Source: Robertmurraya massiliosenegalensis JC6 (GTDB taxonomy: Bacteria; Bacillota; Bacilli; Bacillales; Cytobacillaceae). From it: a stretch of 64,000 bases of DNA. Position 1 is the stretch's first letter, and the number at the start of each line of letters is the position of its first letter. The stretch is taken from positions 449,498-513,497 of the forward strand of contig NZ_HE978511.1 of NCBI RefSeq assembly GCF_000311725.1. The letters run 5' to 3'. Below the pieces are notes generated by a model. That model was not told the DNA's origin and did not search any database. It was given only the letters and a program-made list of their open reading frames with translations. Shown here in pieces: positions 49,942 to 59,596 of the stretch. Made by a program: the position numbers and the translations under genes.

Positions 49942-51033
49942 TTAGCGAGTCAGTTCCTCCATAACGTTATAAAGACGTTGTGCGGCATCCTGAATACCAA
50001 GTTCCTTAGCAGATTTTTTCATTGACATTAATTGCTTCTCATCCATTAAAATACGATCTATTTCTTCCACTAATTTTTTACTCGTCAATTCTTTTTCTAA
50101 TAGTAGTTTTGCTGCACCACGATCACTTAAAGAGCGTGCATTTTTCTCTTGATGATTATTCGTGACATACGGGCTTGGGATGAGAATACTAGGAATCCCT
50201 AACGACGTTAATTCTGCTAATGTCGTTGCTCCTGCACGTGAAACAGTCAAATCAATCCCAGCTAATACTTCTGGCATATTATGGACAAACGGTTTAATGA
50301 CAACATTAGCAGGATTTCCAACTAACTCCACCTCTTTGAGGACTTCGTTATAGTGGACATCACCTGTTATGTATAGTATTTGATACGGTTTACTACCGAA
50401 CTCTGAAAGTGATTTAATCACAGCTTCGTTTATCGGTCTAGCTCCGCGACTTCCACCGAAGATCAAAACAGCTGGTTCACCAGTTTTTAGACCGACCGAC
50501 AATCTACCCTTCACACCATCTTGCCCTAACACTTCTGAAGCGCGTGGATTTCCAGTAAAGACGACTTTTTCATTTGGAAAAAAATTCTTTGCCTCATCAA
50601 AACAGATGGCTATTTTATTGACGTAACGACTTAAAAATTTATTCGTCAATCCTGGGACGCTATTTTGCTCGTGAATAATTGTTGGTATGCCAAGCTTTGC
50701 AGCTGCATACACAACAGGTCCACACACATAACCACCAGTACCAATGACTACATCTGCTTTAAATTCCTTGAGCATCTTTTTGCTATCGGAAACCCCTTTT
50801 ATAAATCGGTAAATGGTTTTCATATTATCAAAAGATAGCTTTCTTTTGAATCCAGTTATATGTATGGATTTAAACGGAATATTTTCTCTTGGAACGAGTT
50901 TTTCTTCTAAGCCTTTTTCTGTGCCAATATATAGGAACTCAGCTTCTATATTTTCTTTTTGAATTTCTCGAATTAAGGCAAGTGCCGGATATATATGTCC
51001 CCCGGTACCTCCACCACTAACAACTATTCTCAT
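49942..51033 (-). CDS. murG: UDP-GlcNAc:lipid I N-acetylglucosaminyltransferase MurG
   Basis: Transfers GlcNAc to lipid I to form lipid II at the inner membrane face. GT-B fold: [15 protein letters not shown] loop at the N-terminus, [22 protein letters not shown] in the linker, and [17 protein letters not shown] with [11 protein letters not shown] in the UDP-GlcNAc domain. 363 aa. RBS AGAGGTGAG. Preceded by a 292-base gap. Confidence 0.97.
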
Positions 51034-51060
51034 TTTCTCACCTCTTGGGTATCTTTAAAA

Positions 51061-51106
51061 GCTGGATCAATAGTAGCTTGGTTTTCACTATTTGGTAAAC
51101 TCCAGC
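51061..51106 (-). repeat. Stem-loop in the murG leader
   Basis: GCTGG (51061-51065) pairs with CCAGC (51102-51106) and, inside, AATAGT (51069-51074) with ACTATT (51087-51092). On the minus strand CCAGC is followed by TTTTAAAG, 28 bases before the murG start. It could be an attenuator-like or RBS-modulating element. Upstream, 51161-51183 has a dyad of AATAACAT/ATGTTGTTAT type. I see no gene in the rest of the gap. Confidence 0.4.
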
Positions 51107-51270
51107 AAGGGAGAGTGTGTTTTTTGCACTTTACCCATTCTACTATATTATCAAGAATCATGAGATAACAACATGATAATGTTATTTATTTTTAATGTTA
51201 TCGTCATAATTGTGCATTCATTATCATTTTACTAAATTGTAAGCTAAATATCTAATTGTAGCCTAAATAG

Positions 51271-51293
51271 AAAGAAGCCCTGAAAACAGGGCT
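51271..51293 (-). terminator. Intrinsic terminator after spoVE
   Basis: Minus strand AGCCCTG-TTTT-CAGGGCT followed by TCTTTCTATTT. Stem is strong, T-run interrupted. Confidence 0.7.
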
Positions 51294-51325
51294 AATTTGA
51301 GGTTATACTATTGTTTTGATTGATA

Positions 51326-52426
51326 CTAATATCTCGAATGACGACTTATATTTAGAAGCACTCCGATTGCAATGAGCATCAGTGTTAAGGAAGAACCACC
51401 ATAACTGAGGAAAGGTAAGGTTATTCCCGTTACAGGCATCAATCCTGTCACAACACCAATATTAATCATGACTTGGATGGCAACCATGGCAATAATCCCA
51501 ACGGCTAAAAAGCTTCCAAATAAGTCAGGGGCCCCTAGGGCAATTCTTATCCCTCTCCACAAAAGAAGGGCAAAAAGCAACAGAACAAAGGAACCACCAA
51601 TGAAACCAAGTTCTTCTGCTAAAATCGCAAAGATGAAATCGGTCTGAGGTTCAGGTAAGTAAAAAAACTTCTGTCTACTCTGACCAAGTCCTAAGCCAAA
51701 CAACCCACCAGGACCGATCGCATATAAGGATTGGATAATTTGGAAGCCACTATTTTGCGGGTCTGACCATGGGTCTAAAAATGACGTGATCCGCTGAATA
51801 CGATATGGCGCTGAGATAATCAGACCGACGAATCCTAACAGTCCTATCACACCTAAGCCAACAAAATGACTGATTCTTGCACCTGCTACAAAGATCATGA
51901 CGATACAAGTACCTACCATGACAGTGCCTGTCCCTAAATCAGGCTGTAGCATAATCATTCCGAAAGCGAGAAATACTAATCCTAACGAAGGGAATAGCCC
52001 CTTTTTTAATGATGTAATATTTTTTTGATTCATTGATAAATACTTTGCCAAAAATGCAATCATGGCCAACTTCATAAATTCGGATGGCTGAACGGAGAAG
52101 GCTCCAACTCCTATCCAACTCCTCGAGCCGTTTCGAACATTTCCGATCCCAGGAATGAGAACGAGCACTAACAGAACAAAACAGACAATTAAAATAACTT
52201 TTGCAAATTTTCTCCATGTCCAGTAATCAATATTCATGATAAAAAACATAGCGAAAATCCCCACCCCTGCAAAAAGCATTTGCCTTTTTGCAAAGAAAAA
52301 AGAATCACCGAATTTATAATCAGCCCAAATCGCACTGGCACTATAAACCATGATTAAACCTAGAGCAAGTAAAGCAAATGTCACGAGCAAAAGAATAAAG
52401 TCAGGAGTAGATCTTTTTGTTGGCAA
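51326..52426 (-). CDS. spoVE: SEDS-family peptidoglycan glycosyltransferase SpoVE (stage V sporulation, spore cortex)
   Basis: FtsW/RodA-type polymerase that works with SpoVD to build the spore cortex. About ten spans; SEDS motifs GSRSWIGVGAFSVQPSEFMK, QPDLGTGTVMVGT, FIFAILAEELGFIGG and the C-terminal TGITLPFLSYGGSSL. The TTG at 52426, 5 bases after AGGTGG, gives 366 aa, the B. subtilis SpoVE length; GTG at 52435 overlaps the RBS. Place between murD and murG is that of spoVE, so I prefer SpoVE over FtsW. Confidence 0.93.
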   Translation of the reverse strand: MPTKRSTPDFILLLVTFALLALGLIMVYSASAIWADYKFGDSFFFAKRQMLFAGVGIFAMFFIMNIDYWTWRKFAKVILIVCFVLLVLVLIPGIGNVRNGSRSWIGVGAFSVQPSEFMKLAMIAFLAKYLSMNQKNITSLKKGLFPSLGLVFLAFGMIMLQPDLGTGTVMVGTCIVMIFVAGARISHFVGLGVIGLLGFVGLIISAPYRIQRITSFLDPWSDPQNSGFQIIQSLYAIGPGGLFGLGLGQSRQKFFYLPEPQTDFIFAILAEELGFIGGSFVLLLFALLLWRGIRIALGAPDLFGSFLAVGIIAMVAIQVMINIGVVTGLMPVTGITLPFLSYGGSSLTLMLIAIGVLLNISRHSRY

Positions 52427-52497
52427 TTTATCCACCTCGAATGCAAGTTTAAAGGGCCGAGTTGTGTTATGCCAAACAGACGAAATTGGACTAGCCC

Positions 52498-53850
52498 TTA
52501 TTTAAGCTTATGCACCGCTTCGATAAAAATGTCTCCCCTAACCTCAAAAGTTTTATACTGGTCCCAGCTAGCACATGCAGGTGATAGTAGCACCACATCT
52601 CCTGGGCTAGACAGCTCAATAGCAGCGGGTACGGCTTTTTCAACATTATCGACACGGATGATCGATTTTATTCCTGCCTCACTCGCCACTCTTTCTATTT
52701 TCCCAGCCGTTTGTCCAAACGTTACGAGCGCTTTGACTTGCTCCAAATAAGGACGTAATTCATCAAATTCATTTCCTCTATCTAAGCCTCCTGCAAGTAA
52801 TACAACTGGTTCATTAAATGCAGCTAACGCCTTGCTTGTTGCTAAAATATTCGTTGCCTTCGAATCATTATAAAACTTTCGTCCTTCTTTCTCTGCGATA
52901 AATTGTAAACGATGCTTAACCCCTTTGAAGGAATTTAACACCTTAAATATCGCCTCATTATCTACGCCAGAAAGCTTAGCAGCTGCCACTGAAGATAATA
53001 TATTTTCGAGATTATGTTCCCCAGGTAAGACGATATCTTCCATAGCCATAATTTTTTCGTCCATGAACCAAATGGCCCCGTCTTTCACATACGCACCGTT
53101 ATCGACAATTTTCTTCGTGGAAAATGGAATGATCTGTGCTTTCGATTGTTTCGCTAATTCAACGACCTGTTCTTGATCAACGTTAACAATCAAAAACTCA
53201 TCTTCCGTTTGATTTTTTGTAATATTGGCCTTCGCTTTCCAATAATCACTTAAATTCCCGTGATAATCTAAATGAGCCTCATACAGATTCGTGAGGATCG
53301 CAATAAACGGATTAAAACGATCAATTCCCATTAACTGAAACGAAGATAGTTCAATGACTACCATATTTTCGGCTGTTGCTTCTTGTGCTACGTCGGATGC
53401 GACTGTTCCGATATTTCCCGCAATTAGAGGTGATTTTCTTCCTTCACGTAGCATTTCAAATACAAGAGTCGTTGTCGTTGTTTTCCCATTTGTTCCTGTA
53501 ATCGCCACAAATGGCGCTTCTGAAATTTGATAAGCTAGTTCTACTTCTGTAATGATCGGAATACCCTTTTCAAGTGCCCGCTCAATCATTGGATTATGAT
53601 ATGGAATTCCTGGATTCTTAACGATTAATTCGAATCCCTGATCCATTAATTCAATCGGATGCTCCCCACAGATAACTGTAATCCCCTGCTCAAGCAACCC
53701 TTGTGCTTCTGGATTCTCCGATAATGGCTTCATATCATTAACCGTTACAAAAGCCCCCAACCGATGTAAAAGCGAGGCTGCACTCACCCCGCTTTTGGCT
53801 AGTCCTAATACTAATATTTTCTTATGGGTATATGTTTTTATTTGCTTCAA
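52498..53850 (-). CDS. murD: UDP-N-acetylmuramoyl-L-alanine-D-glutamate ligase
   Basis: ATP-dependent ligase adding D-Glu to UDP-MurNAc-L-Ala. Rossmann N-terminal domain ([16 protein letters not shown]), P-loop [13 protein letters not shown] near 117, [13 protein letters not shown], and [15 protein letters not shown] with the substrate Lys/Asp. 450 aa. Start TTG at 53850, immediately after the mraY stop; GAGGTGTGG serves as RBS within mraY. Confidence 0.97.
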
Positions 53851-54825
53851 TTACAACCACACCTCGATATAGATTCCAAGGACAGCAAAGAGCAGTCCAA
53901 CTGTCCAAAATGTTACGACTACACGCCATTCAGACCATCCAACTAGTTCATAATGATGATGTAGTGGACTCATCCGAAAAATCCTTCGTCCAGTTGTTTT
54001 AAATGATAGAACTTGTAAAATAACGGACAAGGTTTCGATTACAAATACCCCACCGATGATGATAAGCAAGATCTCAAGTTTTAATAAAATCGCTACTGCA
54101 GCAATCGCTCCTCCAAGTGCAAGCGAACCAGTATCCCCCATAAATACTTTAGCAGGATGGGCATTAAAAACAAGAAAACCTAATACTGCCCCTACAACAG
54201 CAACTGAAAAAACAGCTATTTCTAGTTGAGATAAACTCCATGCTAATACAGCAAAAGCTCCAAAAGCAATTGCAGCTGTCCCCGATAGTAAACCATCTAG
54301 TCCATCGGTTAAGTTCACTGCATTAGAGAAGCCAACTAACCAAAAGATAATAAAGAGGACATATCCCCAACCTAAATCAATTGAGAAATCTGTTAGTGGA
54401 ATGGAAACCACTGTTGAAAATTCATAATGTTGTAAGATTAAAAAGAAAACAACAGACACGATGATTTGCCCAATTAATTTCTGTAAAGAAGTAAGCCCAA
54501 GGTTTCTCTTCAAGGCTACTTTAATAAAGTCATCTAAAAAGCCTAATAAGCCAAATCCAAAGGTTACAAAGATTAATAAATATGTATGGATAGTAGGCTC
54601 TGCATACTTTCCAATCATAATAAATGTTGTCGCTGCGATTGATAGTAAGATCACAAGACCGCCCATAGTGGGTGTCCCGGATTTCTTCAGATGGGATTTC
54701 GGCCCCTCTTCTCGAATGCTTTGTCCAAATTTCAACCTTCTTAAGAAAGGAATAAATATAGGAGAAAGAATGACTGAAATCAAAAATCCTAATAATATTG
54801 TAAAAAATATAACTTGCTCGAGCAT
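53851..54825 (-). CDS. mraY: Phospho-N-acetylmuramoyl-pentapeptide-transferase
   Basis: Membrane enzyme that joins UDP-MurNAc-pentapeptide to undecaprenyl phosphate, giving lipid I. Ten spans; [10 protein letters not shown] near the N-terminus, FLDDFIKV with the catalytic Asp pair, [19 protein letters not shown] and [10 protein letters not shown]. 324 aa, as in B. subtilis. RBS GGAGAAGG; it starts 3 bases after the stop of the MurF-like domain gene. Confidence 0.98.
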
Positions 54826-54828
54826 TTT

Positions 54829-55281
54829 CTATTCCTTCTCCTCTCGAAACTTCTCTATCAGTTCGTTAATTTTTGCTTCTATTACTGCCTTATCATATGT
54901 TTCATAAAATTCATTAAGAAGTTTTTCATCTAAAAACAGGAAATTTGTTTTGTCCTTTTTATCGATTACTTCTGTATTACTTTTATCAAGGAAAGCAAAC
55001 AAAATGTCCTTTATTCCATTTGCAATGTCATCTGTATAGAATACTGGAAAGTGGTTTGGTGTATATTTAGGTATCGCTTTTCCCTTTTCCCAAACCACCG
55101 CTACCGCTCCATTAGCAATGGCTTGTTGAAGGTCTTGTGCTTTTGAACCTAATGGAATATAAAGGCCTTTTGATTGGTTTATATCCGCTTTTATTGAAAC
55201 GGTTTGAAAATGCAAATCGAACTCCCTTATCCCTGTTACGTCTGGAAAAATTACAGATAAGTCTTCATAAGTTAAGATCAT
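54829..55281 (-). CDS. Free-standing MurF-like N-terminal (UDP-MurNAc-peptide binding) domain protein
   Basis: 150 aa from ATG 55281 behind GGAGAGATAAG. It resembles the N-terminal domain of Mur ligases, closest in layout to MurF: MILTYEDLSVIFPDV start, VSIKADINQSKGLYIPLGS (the DSR...GDLFVALKG position), LQQAIANGAVAVVWEKGKAIP and FPVFYTDDIANGIKDI. Where MurF would go on to its GTNGKT ATP site, this protein has an unrelated charged tail (about 100-150, ending IEKFREEKE). It therefore cannot ligate. It sits exactly where murF lies in other bacteria (murE-murF-mraY); murF itself should be elsewhere, as in B. subtilis. Either a remnant or a domain kept for substrate binding. Family call by eye. 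Confidence 0.72.
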   Translation of the reverse strand: MILTYEDLSVIFPDVTGIREFDLHFQTVSIKADINQSKGLYIPLGSKAQDLQQAIANGAVAVVWEKGKAIPKYTPNHFPVFYTDDIANGIKDILFAFLDKSNTEVIDKKDKTNFLFLDEKLLNEFYETYDKAVIEAKINELIEKFREEKE

Positions 55282-55355
55282 CTTATCTCTCCTTTGCCCC
55301 ACTATGTGAAGTGACGTCTTACAATCGAATTCTAACCATCTATACACTGTAGCTC

Positions 55356-56825
55356 TTAACTTCTTTGTAGTTGTTTAATTGCTTCTTTAGCTACTTCACG
55401 GTCATCAAAATCAAAAACTTGATCACCGATCAACTGATAGGTTTCATGACCTTTCCCGGCAATTAGAATAACATCACCTGGCTCTGCCGTTTCAATCGCA
55501 TAATATATTGCTTTTTTACGGTCTACCAACACCTCAAATGATTGACCCGTCACACCTGCTTCCATATCCTTTAAAATTTGTTCTGGATCTTCACTTCGTG
55601 GATTATCAGAAGTGAAAATGGAGCGGTCACTATATGCACAAGCAACTTGCGCCATTATCGGTCGCTTCGTACGGTCCCTGTCTCCTCCGCAACCAATAAC
55701 GACAGAAACCTTGTTTTGGGCAAACTCCTTGATCGTTTTCAATACATTCTCTAAGCTATCAGGTGTGTGTGCATAATCTACAATCACGGTGAAGTCTTGA
55801 CCAAGATCCACTAGTTCAAAGCGTCCCGCTACACCTTTTATCGTTTCAATGGAGGAAATGGCATCTTCGATTGAAATACCAGAGCAAATCGCAGCCCCAA
55901 TACTAGCAAGCGCATTATAAACACTAAATTTCCCAATTAAACTCATCGTGATCTTATGCATCCCAAAAGGACTTTTTAATTCAAACTCAGTCCCTTGTGA
56001 AGTGATTTGAATATTAGTTGCACGAAGGTTTGCCTCTTTATCGATCCCATAAGTGAGCACATGACCACTCGTACTCTCCATAAATAGTTGACTTGCTTCA
56101 TCATCCACATTTAAGATAGCAAATTTTGGGTTGTGCAAATGATATGTATTTCCCAATTGGGAAAATAATAAGCTTTTTGCTCTCTTATATTCATCCATCG
56201 TATGATGATAATCGAGATGATCCTGTGTTAAATTCGTAAATACCGCAACATTAAAGTCTGTTCCATGGACTCGACCTTCGACTAGAGCATGTGAAGAAAC
56301 TTCCATAACTGCCGTATCAACACCAGCCTCGACCATTTGCTTAAATGTCTTTTGTAAAGTCAAACTTTCTGGCGTCGTATTTTTCGTTTCCATTTGTTTC
56401 GAACCTATTTTCGTATACATCGTACCAATTAAACCTGTTTGCTGGTTTGCATCAGAAAGTATCTTTTCAATGAGATGACTGGTCGTTGTCTTCCCATTTG
56501 TACCCGTAATTCCTATCATATGAAGTTTATGACTAGGTTGACCATAAAATGCATCAGATAATACAGCCATTGCTCGTTTTGTACTTTCTACGACAATAAC
56601 CGGAACCGGTAATGATAATCGTTTTTCGGCCAAAACGGCAACAGCCCCTTGCTTCACAGCTGATTCAGCGTAATCATGACCGTCCACCGTATACCCTTTT
56701 ATACAAATAAAAAGACTTCCTTCTACGACTTTACGGTTGTCATTTTCAATCGATTCAATTTCAGGATTATCGACATGCTCACAATTAATGAAATGAAGAC
56801 TCTTAAGTAAAGTATGTAAATTCAA
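55356..56825 (-). CDS. murE: UDP-N-acetylmuramoyl-L-alanyl-D-glutamate-2,6-diaminopimelate ligase
   Basis: Adds the third stem-peptide residue. N-domain ([21 protein letters not shown]), P-loop TGTNGKTT at 107-114, the carbamylated-Lys region around EYKRAK, and the amino-acid-selecting motif DNPRSEDP, which marks meso-DAP ligases (lysine enzymes differ here). 489 aa. The start is TTG at 56825 with GAGAGG about 12 bases upstream. The 254-base gap to spoVD holds the spoVD terminator and no gene. Confidence 0.96.
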
Positions 56826-59203: not shown

Positions 59204-59596
59204 CTAAGATAAGAACCGTTTTCTTACATCCGGAGATGGTAACAGACACTGATCTTTTTTCCCGAACCATTTATATCTATTTTTAGCGATCATTCCATAA
59301 AAAAAATCTCGCAAAGGTTTCGGAATAACGACTAGGGCATACAGCAACTTCCATGCTCCTGTTATATTCTTACAAACACGAAGGGCAGCGGATGATTTAA
59401 CATAATATCGTTCACCCTCTATAAGAACAAAACTATCGATCTCACTTGAAACGTTACATTTATTTAATAACATTTTCCCGATATCACTTTGCAATGAAGC
59501 AAACGTAAAGACACCATCCGGGTCTCTTTTGATGATAAATTGTACGCTTTGATCGCAAAGATTGCACTCACCATCAAATAGAATAATCCTTTCCAT
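59204..59596 (-). CDS. DCC-family thiol-disulfide oxidoreductase-like protein (DUF393, YuxK-like)
   Basis: 130 aa with the defining DGECNLCDQSVQFII motif (C11 and C14) near the N-terminus, the conserved FASLQSD and SSAALRV stretches, and the C-terminal YKWFGKKDQCLLP. The CxxC suggests a thiol-redox role; no substrate is known for this family. No signal peptide or full membrane span, so probably cytoplasmic or peripheral. RBS AAGGTGG. It lies between pbpB and spoVD, where B. subtilis has nothing; its own terminators on both sides (59080-59110 and 59881-59914) mark it as a separate unit inserted in the cluster. Confidence 0.9.
   Translation of the reverse strand: MERIILFDGECNLCDQSVQFIIKRDPDGVFTFASLQSDIGKMLLNKCNVSSEIDSFVLIEGERYYVKSSAALRVCKNITGAWKLLYALVVIPKPLRDFFYGMIAKNRYKWFGKKDQCLLPSPDVRKRFLS

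Follow-up and report, generated by a model that had tools for sequence, protein, structure and literature searches.

A MurF-like truncated gene between murE and mraY in Robertmurraya massiliosenegalensis and its relatives, with a putative mother-cell promoter in its coding tail

A structural role of Mur ligases beyond catalysis has so far been argued from interaction data and gene fusions: PMC6420597 reports both a two-hybrid contact of MurF with MraY in Caulobacter and the binding of MurG by a MurE-MurF fusion, and describes the Mur ligase N-domain as binding the UDP-MurNAc-peptide precursor; in PMC6736417, one loop of MurE bears the name diphosphate-binding loop. For Bacillus subtilis, PMC1925097 reports that an internal promoter of this operon places spoVE-murG under sigma-E, and PMC517825, in which spoIID is likewise described as sigma-E dependent, gives the sigma-E consensus as a -35 of 8 bp and a -10 of 10 bp with 12 ± 1 bp between them. 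Titles and abstract openings of open-licence papers yielded no description of a truncated gene, or of one resembling MurF, in the interval from murE to mraY, the nearest parallel being the inactivation of murF reported in Buchnera (PMC3164680).

The window analyzed here is the whole 64,000-nt stretch of R. massiliosenegalensis JC6 taken from contig NZ_HE978511.1 (positions 449,498 to 513,497), in which an orphan gene occupying the position of murF serves as a natural experiment for such a structural role. The reading that we favor, and hold to be fairly probable, is that a catalytically dead MurF domain has been retained as a docking protein, with a probable mother-cell promoter for mraY overlapping its gene. 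A Mur ligase relative serving as a structural part of another complex is PAP11 of chloroplasts, a MurE-like chain that appeared, by entry name, among the PDB matches of the MurF N-domain profile. It differs from the orphan in being a full-length protein of the MurE type, found in plants and belonging to another complex.

Place and descent of the orphan gene

The initial annotation had placed a complete 150-aa gene with a strong ribosome binding site, and with no P-loop, between murE and mraY, and both points were borne out (Table 1). The frame is intact from its ATG to its TAG stop (54829-54831), with 74 nt separating it from the end of murE and 3 nt from mraY. The names mraY, murD, spoVE/ftsW-like and murG were assigned from the sequence and are putative. 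The full murF-ddl pair whose presence elsewhere had been raised at the outset was found on another contig of the window genome, where ddl is directly adjoined by a complete murF that encodes 461 aa and has all three Pfam domains, so that the in-place gene is not the ligase. Elsewhere in the window, a 130-aa ORF (59204-59596, minus strand) separates spoVD from the penicillin-binding protein gene that comes next; we take it to resemble the thiol-disulfide DCC/DUF393 family, and tblastn found no copy in the loci compared, many of which do not span the spoVD-PBP interval.

Table 1. Coordinates of the orphan gene, its neighbors and its conserved DNA boxes in the window, and of the P-loop-less MurF-like frames of family f26
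Feature	Position	Strand	Basis or remark
murE, upstream neighbor of the orphan	55356..56825	-	
Shine-Dalgarno of the orphan ORF, AAAGGAGAG	~55287..55295	-	sequence; similar in relatives
Orphan ORF (truncated in-place MurF)	54829..55281	-	150 aa; start ATG at 55281
MurF N-domain minus two nucleotide-binding motifs, codons 1-103	54973..55281	-	hhalign, omega, free synonymous codons
C-terminal tail, without detectable MurF homology	54832..54972	-	hhalign, omega
Upstream box TTCTTAAT, -35-like, conserved	54913..54920	-	
Box CATATGATA, -10-like, conserved	54891..54899	-	first base 74 nt before mraY start
mraY Shine-Dalgarno, within the last orphan codons	54832..54843	-	sequence, also in relatives
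mraY, downstream neighbor, likely target of the DNA element	53851..54825	-	
murD, spoVE/ftsW-like, murG	49942..53850	-	after mraY, same direction
P-loop-less MurF-like frames of f26	L204 421-1335; L260-L271		

All seven genomes of the genus match the orphan, one of them (G001, 81% complete) over residues 104-139 only; there the N-domain is gone, and what matches still sits between murE and mraY. Of the 193 family genomes, 158 have a match at E ≤ 0.001, which in 144 reaches E ≤ 1e-20, the 14 weaker matches including the remnants G001, G033 and G038 as well as MurF itself (G034). Such genus- and family-wide matches show that the orphan is not a chance ORF, and the strong matches mark a protein family, as yet without a name, within a gene cluster that has been studied well. 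Orthologs between murE and mraY, to which the initial annotation had pointed as informative, were found in 57/57 genomes of alignment A2 and in other families; the same spot is occupied in Bacillus methanolicus DE0196 (71% identity) and Robertmurraya yapensis XXST-01 (58%).

With a profile built from the 57 orphans, we searched 397 genomes of the order. Among the matches listed, those from other families were mainly short ORFs (mostly 120-178 aa) and full-length MurFs (~450-470 aa), the latter matching over approximately their first 104 residues. Forty loci were fetched from these matches, chosen across families, and the slot murE-X-mraY was seen in 20/20 full forms and in 19/19 truncated forms from other families; a 21st full form, L146, was interrupted by a contig end and stands outside this count. 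All of the 26 truncated-form genomes tested encode at another place a full MurF that shares 51-69% identity (E ≤ 1e-145) with the ddl-linked MurF of the window genome; the one in G216 carries an internal stop. In all 33 fetched non-slot MurF loci, ddl stood beside MurF. The 21 full-form genomes held no other MurF match better than 1e-49, except G246, whose MurF is split over two contigs.

The orphan HMM scored 63.6-96.6 bits (median 82.4) on the N-domains of all 20 in-place MurFs, at best 43.3 bits on 33 ddl-linked MurFs (median of positive rows 31.6) and at best 11.0 bits on 60 MurEs (median of positive rows 2.8). By hhalign, the orphans matched the in-place MurF N-domains over 104 columns (99.9%, E 1.1e-33), and a 3-residue insertion is common to orphans and in-place MurF and absent from ddl-MurF. 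A profile search with the in-place N-domains, in turn, finds MurF structures that have been solved (2am1, 8.9e-12; 1gg4, 1.5e-11; also 3zm5). Together, the slot, the HMM scores, the hhalign result and the match to solved MurFs indicate that the orphan is the truncated original murF of the cluster, residues 1-104 deriving, by these profile comparisons, from the N-domain of the original in-place MurF. An origin by tandem duplication of murE was rejected on the HMM scores (at most 11.0 bits on MurE against the median of 82.4 on in-place MurF), as was an origin from the ddl-linked murF, on its median of 31.6 bits and the missing insertion. The ddl-linked MurF of the window genome does have an N-domain related to the orphan, but it is full length, lies at another locus and belongs to the lower-scored type.

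A single orphan sequence found no Mur family in Pfam or NCBIfam (TIGR01143 at E ≤ 10 included) and no PDB chain, and a PDB profile search with the orphans gave nothing useful. At E ≤ 0.1, six of 57 orphans matched TIGR01143 with a best E of 7.5e-5, so that the orphans cannot reach its cut-off of 288.6 bits, and PF01225 (Mur_ligase) was matched by none of the 57. The initial reading of a MurF-like N-domain is thus upheld by the family profile and is not evident from the single sequence; that this domain occupies the place of murF itself is confirmed by the profile match and by the murE-X-mraY slot in sister families. AlphaFold2 gave a low-quality model (mean pLDDT 43.1), because just three sequences were usable; its strand and helix order at residues 39-98 is compatible with the fold and is no evidence for it, and since the model is unusable the fold assignment rests on sequence profiles.

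In a FastTree phylogeny of the concatenated MurE, MraY and MurD sequences (101 tips, 1259 columns; cluster genes only), rooted with an outgroup selected among full forms, a single clade (support 0.911) contained all 47 truncated tips, along with 26 tips lacking the gene and three remnants, and covered 18 families. No full form lies within it; outside are 22 full forms including L207 (G268), the P-loop-less L204 (G217) and the gene-less L203 and L205. A single cut of the in-place murF is shown by this sampled tree of cluster genes. At least 17 losses of the orphan after this cut were counted on the tree, a number specific to the sample since gene-less tips were picked deliberately, and such frequent loss in relatives makes the orphan dispensable. 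In our reading, the common ancestor of this large group of families, in which a second murF beside ddl does the ligase job, reduced the in-place murF in a single step to the N-terminal domain; the ATP and C domains disappeared, as did the two nucleotide-binding motifs of the part that stayed. The short form has a new C-terminal tail, whose DNA holds the element described below.

Loss intermediates, with the N-terminal part going first, were seen in L054 (G169), L017/L069 (G001), L062 (G038) and L063 (G033).

The coding tail and its two-box DNA element

The charged tail that had been called unrelated is real, and the Shine-Dalgarno of mraY overlaps its last codons. No significant match between the tail and the rest of MurF was found by hhalign, and a MurF leftover was rejected for that reason. 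The C-termini of the orphan in the window and in relatives (ERRG, REEKE, KEGAK) are imposed by the Shine-Dalgarno of mraY, for which the same bases serve.

What the initial annotation overlooked is a DNA element in the tail, conserved independently of the reading frame. The tail has a median omega of 0.71, and its synonymous change is below that of the N-domain (median pS 0.40 versus 0.52). Its element consists of two boxes just upstream of mraY, in the window TTCTTAAT-N13-CATATGATA and in relatives TTCT(T/G)AA(T/A)-N13-CATATGATA (window 54920-54891, minus strand). Codons T128-Y129-D130 are near frozen (ACA in 47/47, TAT in 50/50 and GAT in 50/51), and the six rows with S at the first codon read TCA, so that the letters CA stay.

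Exact CATATGAT was found 45-115 nt before mraY in 55/63 gene-bearing family relatives, in 17/21 family relatives that lost or broke the orphan gene (18 chosen family genomes and three remnants, not a random sample) and in 14/28 truncated loci of other families; the exact -10 box is thus missing in 8/63 and 14/28 of the gene-bearing relatives and the truncated loci, respectively. The CATATGAT element was seen in 0/21 full-murF loci and in 0/10 gene-less loci of other families, and shuffled regions contained CATATGAT at most 0.21 times on average per group and at most twice in any shuffle. In several gene-lost relatives (e.g., L186, L189, L191 and L192), the spacer has diverged while CATATGAT stays. 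A search of Rfam for a known RNA element gave nothing convincing (best E 0.51, under the gathering score). A conserved peptide was rejected as the main reason for the conservation of the tail, because the synonymous sites are frozen, TCA keeps CA and 17/21 gene-lost relatives keep CATATGAT. As these comparisons indicate, it is the DNA of the tail, rather than its peptide, that is conserved, and the element outlives the gene. The frame across the element is nonetheless open to near the mraY start in 17/17 gene-lost relatives keeping the element (among L017, L062, L063 and L178-L195); a pure DNA element would need no such open frame. An in-frame start with an SD-like sequence, scored with a simple pattern, is present in 4/17 of them.

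The boxes resemble the region before spoIID. Counted by eye in the spoIID upstream regions of 29 family genomes, a -10 with CATA is present in 26/29 and CATATG in 19/29, with nothing similar in 3/29, and upstream of this -10 many family genomes read GTCATAAA, GTCATATT or TACATATT. The -10 of the mraY element fits this spoIID control, its spacing is one base shorter than in spoIID, and its -35 is CATAAT in several f13/f20 loci. The element shares with sigma-E promoters (spoIID; B. subtilis spoVE) a CATATG-type -10, a CATAAT-like -35 in part of the clade and a spacing within one base of that at spoIID. In contrast to them, it lies inside a coding tail before mraY and not at spoVE, and has in the window family the -35 TTCTTAAT, without the ATA of a typical sigma-E site. 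The presence of sigE in 80/80 genomes tested, with or without the element, means that co-occurrence of element and sigE does not discriminate.

The poor fit of the window family's -35 to sigma-E, and the TATGAT within CATATGAT, which is near a sigma-A -10, would both suit a vegetative (sigma-A) promoter or, in a variant of this alternative, the site of another DNA-binding protein. We regard this as possible but doubtful, since a sigma-70 scan of 54700-55400 returned no site at the element (one weak site elsewhere, with an average of 2.6 in shuffles) and the CATATG-type -10 and the f13/f20 CATAAT -35 resemble the region before spoIID. The spoIID-like -10, the CATAAT -35 of f13/f20, the sigma-70 null and the precedent of spoVE-murG favor a mother-cell promoter, and a sigma-E-type promoter for mraY-murD-spoVE-murG is, by our estimate, probable. 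Such a promoter would let the sporulating mother cell make MraY, MurD, SpoVE and MurG for the cortex, tying wall-precursor supply to spore cortex synthesis. One stretch of DNA would then have two jobs, a coding tail hosting a probable sporulation promoter that survives the loss of the gene.

Selection on the protein and its possible role

Codon statistics and omega were computed for 55 orphans, leaving out genome duplicates, the remnants L017/L069, L062 and L063, L066 as a locus of MurF itself, L051 for its strong divergence and L054 for its broken N-terminus; omega was taken from the 127 of 1485 pairs with dS of 0.05-1.2. Over codons 1-103, omega has a median of 0.25 in these 127 pairs and is below 1 in 19/19 independent pairs (0.08-0.67). 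Across the 55 sequences, A54, G58, A59, P71 and P75 never change, yet their synonymous codons are used freely, with GCA 16, GCG 15, GCT 13 and GCC 11 at A54 and all four codons also at G58 and P71. Compared with mraY over 18 pairs (omega 0.22 for the orphan versus 0.023, some pairs being saturated with mraY dS >2), the orphan is approximately ten times less constrained. From the omega of 0.25, the free synonymous codons and the comparison with mraY, the constraint on the orphan protein is real but moderate.

These values bear on whether the gene is a murF pseudogene that drifts in slow decay, with selection acting on the tail promoter only. The weak constraint relative to mraY and the independent losses in the sample, after which the DNA element often stays, are what such drift would produce. 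The consistently low omega and the invariant residues with free codons largely contradict it, however, and a single origin at the base of an 18-family clade would mean a very long survival of the open frame, so that we consider decay unlikely. Where the orphan is present, the dN/dS comparison that the initial annotation had in mind reveals purifying selection. Its suggestion of a maintained domain holds, and a reading as a recent decayed copy does not, given one ancient truncation and the omega of about 0.25. It had named frequent frameshifts and relaxed selection in close relatives as counting against its reading; relatives do often lose the gene, but relaxed selection was not found where the gene is present.

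A second possibility is that the ORF is kept mainly to carry ribosomes from murE to the start of mraY by translational coupling, the protein itself being unimportant. The mraY Shine-Dalgarno within the last orphan codons, the gap of 3 nt and the open frame across the element in the gene-lost relatives would all agree with it. Such a device does not predict the amino acid conservation of residues 1-103, however. Five loci (L196, L198, L199, L200 and L205) have murE and mraY 2-25 nt apart with nothing between, and the in-frame SD-like start is present in few of the gene-lost relatives. On this evidence we think translational coupling quite improbable as the reason for the gene.

The motifs that were lost and kept were compared by columns in 20 in-place MurFs, 33 ddl-MurFs and 76 orphans. 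D-S/T-R (columns 31-33) is present in 20/20 in-place MurFs and 0/76 orphans, and F-D/N-G/A-H (columns 49-52) in 20/20 in-place MurFs, with DGH or NGH in 0/76 orphans, where the FDGH-type loop is mostly deleted (gaps in 69-73 of 76). This loop of MurF presumably corresponds to the diphosphate-binding loop of MurE. The P-loop GKT is likewise absent (0/76), and the orphans, at 128-164 aa, lack the middle and C domains. Retained are the hydrophobic core GLF-P and AI-xGA-A-W and the segment P-x-Y-T-P-N-H-F-P-I-F, and F25, T27, Q36, Y77, N80 and H81 are more fixed in orphans than in MurF. The in-place dcw MurF (TIGR01143) thus has the same N-domain sequence, with the core GLF-P, AI-GA-A-W and P--P--FP-F, in the same murE-X-mraY slot, whereas the orphan is without the ATP (middle) and C domains, the DSR motif and the FDGH loop, has a new unrelated tail and cannot be a ligase.

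That the domain has retained its binding of UDP-MurNAc-peptide and modulates the flux of precursors, as the initial annotation had proposed for the tripeptide, would make sense for a sensor beside MurE and MraY that derives from the precursor-binding domain of a Mur ligase (PMC6420597), but it is not supported and appears highly improbable, both motifs being universal in the in-place MurFs and gone in 76/76 orphans. A protein that has lost its ligand motifs and its catalysis, but whose core is still constrained, is most simply read as a docking or scaffold piece, and we infer from the sequences that the orphan is one. The catalytically dead orphan would dock or scaffold by keeping the old MurF contact with MraY or MurE, rather than act as a ligand sensor.

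Other MurF-like proteins

In family f26, 13/14 genomes have a MurF-like open frame of 304-467 codons right after murE. Its P-loop is destroyed (GKT in 0/13, with GDYT or similar for GSNGKTT), while DGH is kept in 12/13. Canonical MurF was found in 9/14 f26 genomes, in eight elsewhere and in one (G369) in the slot itself. The f26 proteins resemble the orphan in occupying the same slot after murE, in being catalytically dead by sequence and in keeping open frames. They differ from it in being longer, in keeping DGH (12/13) and in forming a separate lineage. As a second, independent case of a P-loop-less MurF in the murF slot, they support the docking idea. More tentatively, and with rather less than even confidence, the MurF N-domain could be the docking part of a MurE-MurF-MraY assembly. 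The slot would then need a MurF for reasons other than catalysis and, with catalysis moved to another murF, would have kept a dead module twice independently, as the N-domain only in the 18-family clade and as a longer P-loop-less form in f26.

No match passed the TIGR01143 cut-off in G217, G260, G319, G344, G518, G227 and G266. Four loci (L273-L276, in G217, G227, G266 and G518) encode MurF-like proteins of 531-548 aa with an intact P-loop (GSYGKTS/GSFGKTS), and since nothing passes the cut-off in those genomes, these proteins may be their MurF. In place of the N-domain, they have a hydrophobic, probably membrane-bound N-terminus.
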